Origin: an uncultured Latescibacterota bacterium
Lineage (GTDB): Bacteria; Latescibacterota; UBA2968
NCBI GenBank assembly: GCA_951812755.1
Contig: OX638329.1
Span: 4,968,522-5,032,521, forward strand
Length of the DNA stretch: 64,000 nt
Reading direction: 5' to 3'
Part shown: piece after piece, positions 41,968-43,492 of the stretch
Numbering within the stretch: the stretch's first letter is position 1
Layout: the number at the start of each line of letters is the position of its first letter
The notes under the pieces: model-generated
What the model was told of the DNA's origin: nothing
Seen by the model: the letters and a program-made list of their open reading frames with translations, nothing else
Database searches by the model: none
Program-made: the position numbers and the translations under genes

Positions 41968-42966
41968 TCATCCCATCAACGCCTTATATCCCATCCCCAT
42001 CACCTCCTTGACATACTCCAGCGTGCGTTGTCCCTCAATACGCGCTCTCGAACCGCCCAGATTCAAAATATCGCGCACCAGATCGGACTGTTCTTCAAAA
42101 CCCTTGCGACGTATCCGAAACGGCGTCATAAAATCGTTCAGCACATCTGCCAACGCGCCTTTACACGTCGTACAGCCGACCGCTCCACTGCGACATGCCC
42201 TTGCCACCTGCCCGGCATTCTCTTCATCGAACACCTCTCGATAGTGAAATGCCGAACACACATCGGGATTTCCCGGATCAGTTGCCCGCACCCGCCCCGG
42301 ATCGGTAACCATATTCATCACCTTTGCCCGTACAGACGCTTCTCTATCCGATAAATCAATGGCATTGCCATAACTCTTCCCCATCTTGTTCTGACCATCC
42401 GTGCCCTTCAAGCGCGTACCATAAACACCATCGGGAATGGGAAACACCTCGCCATAAATCCGATTAAATCGCGCAGCCACTTCCCGTGCCAATTCAATAT
42501 GGGGTCTTTGATCTGGACCCACCGGCACATATCGCGGACGGAAAAGCAAAATATCCGCCGCCTGAGACACCGGATACCCCACAAAACCGTAAGGCACCCG
42601 ATTCCCCAACCCCATCTTACCCATTTCCTCCTTAACCGTTGGATTTCGCAACAAACGCGGCAACGTCACCAAATTGGAAAAAATCATGGTTAACTCTGCC
42701 AGTTGTGGCACCTGTGATTGCAAAAAACAAACGCTTTTTTCGGGATCAAAACCCGCCGCCAGATAATCCAGAGCCATTTCTCTGACGTGATGCTCCAGAT
42801 CCTCTGTCCGATCCCGATGCGTCGTCAGCGCCTGATAATCGGCAATCATAAAAAAACACTGAAACTCATCCTGCATCTCAAACCGATTCTTCAACGACCC
42901 AACATAATGTCCCAAATGCATTCTGCCCGTTGGGCGATCACCTGTTAAAACAATTGTGCGACTCAT
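41968..42966 (-). CDS. trpS: Tryptophanyl-tRNA synthetase
   Basis: TrpS charges tRNA(Trp). The 332-aa class I synthetase has the HIGH motif in GRMHLGHYVGSLKN, the KMSKS-equivalent GQNKMGKSYGNAIDLSD, and FMIADYQALTTHRD and VPVGPDQRPHIELAREVA. AAAGGAA lies about 7 bases before the ATG at 42966. The 5' leader carries two Trp-rich leader/terminator modules (42967-43475), so expression is very likely set by transcription attenuation. Confidence 0.95.
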   Translation of the reverse strand: MSRTIVLTGDRPTGRMHLGHYVGSLKNRFEMQDEFQCFFMIADYQALTTHRDRTEDLEHHVREMALDYLAAGFDPEKSVCFLQSQVPQLAELTMIFSNLVTLPRLLRNPTVKEEMGKMGLGNRVPYGFVGYPVSQAADILLFRPRYVPVGPDQRPHIELAREVAARFNRIYGEVFPIPDGVYGTRLKGTDGQNKMGKSYGNAIDLSDREASVRAKVMNMVTDPGRVRATDPGNPDVCSAFHYREVFDEENAGQVARACRSGAVGCTTCKGALADVLNDFMTPFRIRRKGFEEQSDLVRDILNLGGSRARIEGQRTLEYVKEVMGMGYKALMG

Positions 42967-43150
42967 GTCTGTTCCTTTCTTGAGCTGTTAAAATCCATGT
43001 CTTCAAAAAAAAAGCGCGCCACCATCCGGTAGCGCGCGTTACAAATAAAGATCGCCAGATATCCGGTGGTGGACATACATCTCCCATTGCGCCTACCGAC
43101 CACCAGCGCCCGCCAACATTAAACAGCTCTGTCATCGCACTCAAAAACAT
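42967..43150 (-). promoter_or_regulatory. trpS leader module 2 (Trp codons, antiterminator and terminator)
   Basis: An ORF from ATG 43150 (or 43135) has tandem TGG codons at 43100-43105. Segment 1 CTGGTGGT (43099-43106) can pair with segment 2 ACCACCGG (43063-43070). Segment 2 can instead pair with segment 3 CCGGATGGTGG (43019-43029), which is the 5' arm of the terminator. This 1:2, 2:3, 3:4 order is that of classical amino-acid attenuators. A weakness is that the leader ORF has no stop before it overlaps trpS (stop at 42938). Confidence 0.6.
43005..43037 (-). terminator. Attenuator terminator 2, directly upstream of trpS
   Basis: In the minus-strand RNA a 10-bp stem (GCGCGCUACC with GGUGGCGCGC, one G-U pair, GGAU loop) is followed by nine U residues. 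It ends only 38 bases before the trpS start, so it must be bypassed to express trpS. Confidence 0.85.
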
Positions 43151-43240
43151 CGCATATCTTTCTCAAAGCAAAAAGGGTTATTCGGCTGGGTGGATGAGAA
43201 GGGTTCCGCGTCCTTCCGCGTAATCAGTCCCATCCGCGAT

Positions 43241-43273
43241 AAAAAAAACCGCCATCAAAAAGCCGACGGCGGT
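43241..43273 (-). terminator. Attenuator terminator 1
   Basis: In the minus-strand RNA ACCGCCGUC pairs with GAUGGCGGU (9 bp, one G-U), with an 8-base loop, followed by eight U residues. It starts 31 bases after the stop of the Trp-rich leader peptide. Confidence 0.8.
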
Positions 43274-43304
43274 CAATTCAGAATTTTCAAATAAATACAA
43301 TCCG

Positions 43305-43418
43305 TCAGCAAACCCACACAATGGCACGCCACCACCAACCACGGACAGTCTCGGACACACGGGGAGCCAGCACCCTATCGGGCGTCGCATCAGCCAAAAT
43401 GTGATCGTGCATAGTCAT
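43305..43418 (-). CDS. trpL: Trp-rich leader peptide upstream of trpS (37 aa)
   Basis: A 37-codon ORF with CGGGAG 6 bases before its ATG at 43418. It ends VRGWWWRAIVWVC, with three consecutive TGG codons (43329-43337) and a fourth at 43314-43316. This is the classic form of a trp-operon leader peptide. A terminator follows 31 bases after the stop and a sigma70-type promoter lies just upstream. It would sense charged tRNA(Trp) by ribosome stalling. The gene symbol follows the general name for such peptides. Confidence 0.78.
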   Translation of the reverse strand: MTMHDHILADATPDRVLAPRVSETVRGWWWRAIVWVC

Positions 43419-43445
43419 AACAAACTCCCGTAATATATCGCCGAT

Positions 43446-43492
43446 GAAAATAACGACTTCAACAACTTGTGTCAAGCCGTTTGATCTTCTTT
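43446..43492. repeat. Copy A of a 45-bp duplication (gene end plus promoter)
   Basis: A perfect 22-bp match (starting gtcaagccgtttgatc) plus about 24 further bases at roughly 70% identity are shared with 46931-46977. The duplicated DNA encodes the C-terminal KEDQTA and stop of two different proteins and contains the promoter. Confidence 0.85.
43447..43475 (-). promoter_or_regulatory. Promoter for the trpS leader transcript
   Basis: On the minus strand TTGACA (43470-43475), a 17-base spacer and TATTTT (43447-43452). It overlaps the stop codon of the preceding gene. The same promoter, slightly diverged, occurs at 46932-46960. Confidence 0.65.

Follow-up and report, generated by a model that had tools for sequence, protein, structure and literature searches.

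The window, which is the whole stretch of 64,000 nucleotides analysed here, covers positions 4968522–5032521 of a single-contig 6.53-Mb genome, and the records of its near relatives place them in Candidatus Latescibacterota. The genome contains two genes for tryptophanyl-tRNA synthetase (TrpRS), of which the copy in the window is the second, auxiliary one (termed trpS2). On the minus strand it is preceded, in this order, by a promoter, a leader ORF with three consecutive Trp codons and a stop codon (ORF1), a terminator, a second leader ORF with tandem Trp codons (ORF2) and a second terminator. ORF1 with terminator 1 is referred to as module 1, and ORF2 with terminator 2 as module 2:

43447–43475, minus strand: sigma-70-type promoter TTGACA-N17-TATTTT, 10/12 matches
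43305–43418, minus strand: leader ORF 1, 37 amino acids, MTMHDHILADATPDRVLAPRVSETVRGWWWRAIVWVC and stop (ATG 43418, TGA 43305, GGGAG upstream)
43302–43309, minus strand: segment 2 of module 1, GCTGACGG, overlapping the TGA stop; antiterminator pairing with 43269–43262
43241–43274, minus strand: terminator 1, hairpin and U8 (stem 43274–43247; covariance model R3)
43160–43240, minus strand: spacer between the modules, single copy in the genome
43063–43150, minus strand: leader ORF 2, from ATG through Trp-Trp (43105–43100) to Pro-Pro-Pro; the frame is open through terminator 2
43063–43072, minus strand: segment 2 of module 2, CCACCACCGG, pairing 1:2 with the Trp codons or 2:3 with CCGGATGGTGG of the terminator
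43005–43037, minus strand: terminator 2, 10-bp stem and T9 (stem 43037–43014; covariation)
41968–42966, minus strand: trpS2, second TrpRS, with motifs HxGH, KMGKS and C-x20-C-x6-C-x2-C

This succession had been proposed earlier from the letters of the window alone (the original prediction), and all of its elements are indeed found on the minus strand in their proposed places: the TTGACA-N17-TATTTT promoter (43475–43447, 10/12 matches), the 37-codon leader with Shine-Dalgarno sequence, WWW and a further Trp codon (43418–43305, GGGAG upstream), the first intrinsic terminator (stem 43274–43247 and U-tract), the second ORF (ATG 43150, WW 43105–43100), a segment 2 with two alternative partners, the second terminator with its 10-bp stem (43037–43014) and nine T's, and trpS. 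A TTGAC(A/T) promoter ahead of module 1 is also present in genus g1 and in sequences L009 and L010; none is visible before module 1 in L008. The spacer between the modules was considered as a dispersed repeat, which is ruled out by its being a single copy in the genome.

The cysteine motif C-x20-C-x6-C-x2-C (residues 237–268 of trpS2) is missing from trpS1, which is 45% identical to trpS2, sits elsewhere in the genome and is preceded by an ORF that by eye is HNH endonuclease-like, without a Trp leader. The solved structures nearest to trpS2 are TrpRS II (2a4m), 1yi8 and 2g36, of which the first two are Deinococcus enzymes and the third is the Thermotoga enzyme, a close sequence match whose iron-sulphur motif the cysteine motif resembles. 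It is possible from these motifs that trpS2 is an iron-sulphur TrpRS. Like the inducible, inhibitor-resistant auxiliary enzyme of the Streptomyces TrpRS1 type it is a second TrpRS beside a housekeeping copy.

Folding of the window's leader as a single sequence is no better than that of shuffled sequences (z −0.24 and −1.03), and the count of terminator-like sites in the region is near the shuffle expectation. Since the single sequence does not exceed the shuffles, significance rests on the comparison with relatives, for which 16 genomes supplied leaders of the second trpS, the sequences within the genus not being independent of each other. Mutually exclusive stems, for which folding had been proposed as a check, were found in the form of antiterminator/terminator alternatives, but single-sequence folding did not rise above shuffles. 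In the comparison of related trpS leaders, proposed as a second check, module 2 recurs in family f1 and part of family f2, and module 1 across genus g1 and two further genera.

In module 1, the Trp codons of ORF1 are located at 43337–43329 (WWW) and 43316–43314. A short leader ORF with Shine-Dalgarno sequence, a run of WW or WWW and a nearby stop was found in the members read, that is, in genus g1, in L009 (GWWWHNVMLRGQS, then stop) and in L010 (GWWSVPSRPGRL, then stop). The original prediction had considered module 1 to be without an antiterminator. This is wrong: terminator 1 has a competing partner for its 5′ arm in GCTGACGG, located at the stop codon, so that antiterminator and terminator are mutually exclusive. 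The pairing is kept in three f1 genera (g1, g4, and g5) with differing sequences; for example, in L010 GGCCGAC pairs with GTCGGCC and in L009 GGCCAATCG pairs with CGGTTGACC with one mismatch. In the window the TGA is part of GCTGACGG, and the stop lies no more than a few nucleotides from segment 2 in L010 and L009. When partial transcripts were folded as if a ribosome occupied the last Trp codon, the antiterminator of module 1 formed in 4/4 sequences tested; when it was placed at the stop codon instead, terminator 1 formed in 4/4. The energy of the antiterminator duplex was matched by no more than 3 to 59 out of 500 shuffles (f1 and f2 sequences). Covariance model R3 finds module 1 in 11/11 genomes of genus g1 and in G013 and G014, in all of which terminator 1 recurs. 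As far as sequences can test it, module 1 has all the parts of a classical attenuator.

Module 2 is more widely distributed. Covariance model R1 finds it in 15/15 genomes of family f1 (the G010 copy being interrupted by a contig end) and in 3/6 genomes of family f2, and it precedes trpS2 wherever the neighbouring gene could be read. With the same model nothing clear or comparable was found in other families of the phylum, nor a comparable element elsewhere in the window's own genome, and beyond the order there were weak terminator-like matches only; among the trpS loci of other phyla examined, no leader had a similar element. A pattern search of the window's genome for a further arrangement of Trp codons and CCACCACC gave two additional matches, which does not exceed the reversed control. 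Terminator 2 is supported by covariation: 93% of the cells of its alignment are paired, changes on both sides, compensatory to each other, occur at 5/12 pairs, and the covariation score is 0.408 as compared with 0.204 for shuffles and 0.04–0.12 when the pairing is slid.

Segment 2 of module 2, CCACCACCGG, is nearly invariant across the relatives. Its general partner in the terminator is CCGGAAGGTGG, of which CCGGATGGTGG is the version in the window. The alternative pairing of segment 2 with the Trp codons or with terminator 2 had been predicted, and 93% of cells retain the 2:3 pairing versus 21–58% when slid; it exhibits no covariation, the element being almost invariant, and shuffles are not consistently surpassed in duplex energy. 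Folding of partial transcripts in which the ribosome occupies the last Trp codon yielded the module 2 antiterminator in L001, L003, L008, L009, L014 and partly L130, and not in L010, L012, L015, and L020; in f2 folding does not favour the antiterminator. Minimum free energy folds of the full-length leaders favour the terminators in most sequences, and the antiterminators therefore depend on folding during transcription.

The peculiarity of module 2 is its reading frame. An ORF2 of the type RRWWW..CPPPD is conserved in seven lineages, and an in-frame ATG with a Shine-Dalgarno-like sequence is present in most lineages, so that module 2 has both a start codon and the cognate codons. There is, however, no stop codon in the Trp frame before terminator 2 in any of the 10 sequences compared, as had been noted for the window as a weak point of the prediction, a point that is thus correct and conserved. 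In this respect module 2 departs from the classical attenuator, where a stop precedes the terminator. The other two frames contain stops in several lineages, and in L020 a stop is reached only within the terminator's 3′ arm. By chance, the Trp frame would be open with a probability of 0.3–0.6 per lineage, as estimated from shuffles, the product for the seven lineages being about 0.003 if they are independent. The Trp codons and CCACCACCG are in the same frame at nearly constant spacing, and segment 2 therefore reads Pro-Pro-Pro, which it does in nearly all relatives (Pro-Thr-Pro in L020).

The stop codon of a classical attenuator arrests the ribosome close to segment 2. If there is none, a ribosome close behind the polymerase would be expected to disrupt the terminator and thereby spoil repression. 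The answer that we favour is that pausing of the ribosome on the in-frame prolines may replace the stop codon of ORF2; a simpler alternative would be a ribosome that lags behind by the right distance. For E. coli it has been shown that a polyproline stall 5′ of an intrinsic terminator raises termination, clearly only in the absence of EF-P (PMC5021804). Taken further, CCACCACCGG would have a triple role as partner of the Trp codons, as antiterminator strand and as a Pro-Pro-Pro pause, tunable by EF-P, in place of the stop, and together with the classical attenuator this would make a two-step series switch; we regard this extended proposal as tentative and on balance rather doubtful. With its stop codon missing, module 2 is a variant of the classical attenuator rather than a plain member of the class.

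With respect to the arrangement of the two modules, only about 15–20 nucleotides separate the U-tract of terminator 1 from the start of ORF2 in L003, L004, L006, L007, and L011. There is therefore no room for a second promoter, and the modules are in series on one transcript, which, as far as the sequences tell, must pass both terminators unless a promoter is hidden within module 1. In family f2 the parts are found in front of separate genes in the order leader1–trpS1–leader2–trpS2: the canonical trpS1 has a classical-type Trp leader of its own (e.g., one ending in SWWWHDFNRTGRLNAC and stop), and trpS2 with module 2 follows directly after trpS1 (L015, L016, and L020). Module 1 of L010 can be aligned with these leaders at scores well beyond those of shuffles (z 4.8 to 8.1) and has no similarity to module 2 in alignment. 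Module 1 of genus g1 alone gives z values of only 0.3 to 2.6, and the link of the window to the f2 trpS1 leaders therefore runs via L010. Covariance model R2 gives an E of 3.6e-4 on L010, and R3 gives 7.5e-4 to 0.07 on the f2 leaders, both models also matching generic terminators; these matches are no more than suggestive of homology between module 1 and the f2 trpS1 leader. The stack has probably arisen from two single-gene attenuators of neighbouring genes, joined by loss of the gene between them. In G014 the order is module 1, an ORF of 127 amino acids, and then module 2 with trpS2, for which insertion of the ORF into an existing stack is an equally simple explanation. The intervening ORF (L009 1338–1721) is tautomerase-like, an identity assigned by eye only. 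Upstream of trpS1 in L018 (G019) there are promoter-like and terminator-like sequences without a Trp leader ORF, this leader having apparently decayed.

The modules have outlived changes in the protein behind them. In G004–G006 (L012, L013, and L011) trpS2 has a common in-frame deletion of about residues 196–278, which removes KMSKS and the cysteines; the deleted forms are under purifying selection (dN/dS 0.05–0.08 among themselves), and both attenuators are still in place. In family f2 the catalytic motifs of trpS2 are lost and dN/dS is 0.37 versus 0.06 for trpS1. The attenuator is retained before all of these altered genes. The TrpRS-like ORFs without catalytic motifs in f2 (L015 2839–3699, L016 289–1152, and L020 526–1227), which follow trpS1 directly and have module 2 ahead of them, may have a regulatory role or be in decay. 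In L130 and at G011:C47:234746–235345, module 2 lies ahead of a remnant of trpS2 with in-frame stops (pseudogene).

The history just outlined also lends itself to another reading, in which module 2 is the sole working attenuator and module 1 is a leftover leader (of trpS1, or of the gene between in g5) that merely lowers basal expression. The wider occurrence of module 2, the fact that in f2 the first leader serves trpS1, the ORF between the modules in G014 and the alignment of the L010 module with the f2 trpS1 leaders all speak in its favour. A leftover is, however, expected to decay, and the conservation of module 1 therefore counts against it: Trp codons, stop, antiterminator, and terminator are kept across the genus, G013, and G014, the segments differing and yet pairing. 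We consider this reading unlikely.

Far less probable still is the control of trpS2 by a tRNA-sensing T-box or another riboswitch instead of by translation of a leader peptide. T-boxes do control trpS in other bacteria, and one precedes a related trpS of an Anaerolineae genome (L049). In the window, however, no Rfam family reaches its gathering score, and in the leader neither the T-box (RF00230) nor Trp_leader is matched even at E up to 10, whereas the same library detects the T-box of L049 with 111.9 bits, and what is conserved in the leaders are in-frame Trp codons and start codons. The T-box of L049 (961–1213) represents a different solution for a related gene; a weak module-2-like match in L049 proved to be this T-box. 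Finally, the ORFs could be fortuitous or untranslated, and the hairpins could simply terminate the upstream gene and a small RNA, as might be thought from the folding and terminator counts of the window alone. Conservation in two families with covariation, the open Trp frame, the nearly invariant segment 2 and the near-constant spacing leave such a coincidence hardly any probability.

We therefore return to two ribosome-mediated Trp attenuators in series on one transcript before the auxiliary trpS2, an interpretation in which we have good, if not full, confidence. Its elements, their conservation, the terminator covariation and the serial order are read directly from the aligned leaders. We infer that the ORFs are translated, with a response to Trp-tRNA and a pause. 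When Trp-tRNA is sufficient, the ribosome at the stop codon of ORF1 would cover GCUGACGG, terminator 1 would form and transcription would end. When Trp-tRNA is short, the ribosome would be stalled on WWW, GCUGACGG would remain accessible and bind the 5′ arm of terminator 1, and the polymerase would pass. In module 2 a stall on the second Trp run would then free CCACCACCGG for pairing with CCGGAUGGUGG in terminator 2, and trpS2 would be transcribed; with sufficient Trp-tRNA the ribosome would reside on segment 2, held there by a pause, for which the in-frame Pro-Pro-Pro (CCACCACCGGAT) is the likely site, or simply by lagging behind the polymerase. The need to read through two successive terminators would provide a low background and a steeper response, which, if both modules act, would be graded or AND-like.

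How does this compare with known systems? For an auxiliary TrpRS of Streptomyces, control by a leader-peptide attenuator was reportedly tested by Vecchione and Sello (2010). The leaders of the E. coli trp operon (Rfam Trp_leader) and of pheST likewise have 1:2, 2:3, and 3:4 segments and a ribosome on regulatory codons, and module 1 fits this scheme; module 2 differs in having no stop before the terminator, and there is no Rfam match. In B. subtilis, the rtpA (anti-TRAP) leader and the tandem T-boxes of thrZ also place several sensors of uncharged tRNA in succession ahead of a single gene; these use T-boxes, or a T-box with a translational leader peptide, whereas here two leader-peptide transcription attenuators are stacked. 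Classical attenuators have been predicted in Streptomyces before leuS and before trpS (trpS2 of S. avermitilis), the latter with a tandem-Trp leader peptide, antiterminator, and terminator as in our case; they are, however, single modules from another phylum, and stacking is not described in the accessible part of the source (PMC1262725). What is new is not an attenuator before trpS, already known from Streptomyces (PMC1262725), but the stack and the stop-less module. In the open-access literature, no earlier report of such a stacked or stop-less attenuator was found. Polyproline stalls before terminators (PMC5021804) and mgtP of the mgtCBR leader, cited in the same paper, likewise let a downstream RNA structure form by a pause at consecutive prolines; they are an artificial reporter or an EF-P/proline signal, whereas here the prolines double as the RNA partner of the Trp codons.

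The usual picture of leader-peptide attenuation has one switch, and its leader ends in a stop codon. If our interpretation is true, there is a natural series of two switches, together with relatives that have the parts before separate genes, from which it could be seen how a stacked switch can arise, and the stack would be a natural test of steeper responses. The stop-less leader raises the question of how the Trp-rich state is read, and a pause at the prolines offers an answer open to direct testing. Leader-peptide control of an aminoacyl-tRNA synthetase would thus be extended to the Latescibacterota, including relatives whose second TrpRS lacks the catalytic motifs.
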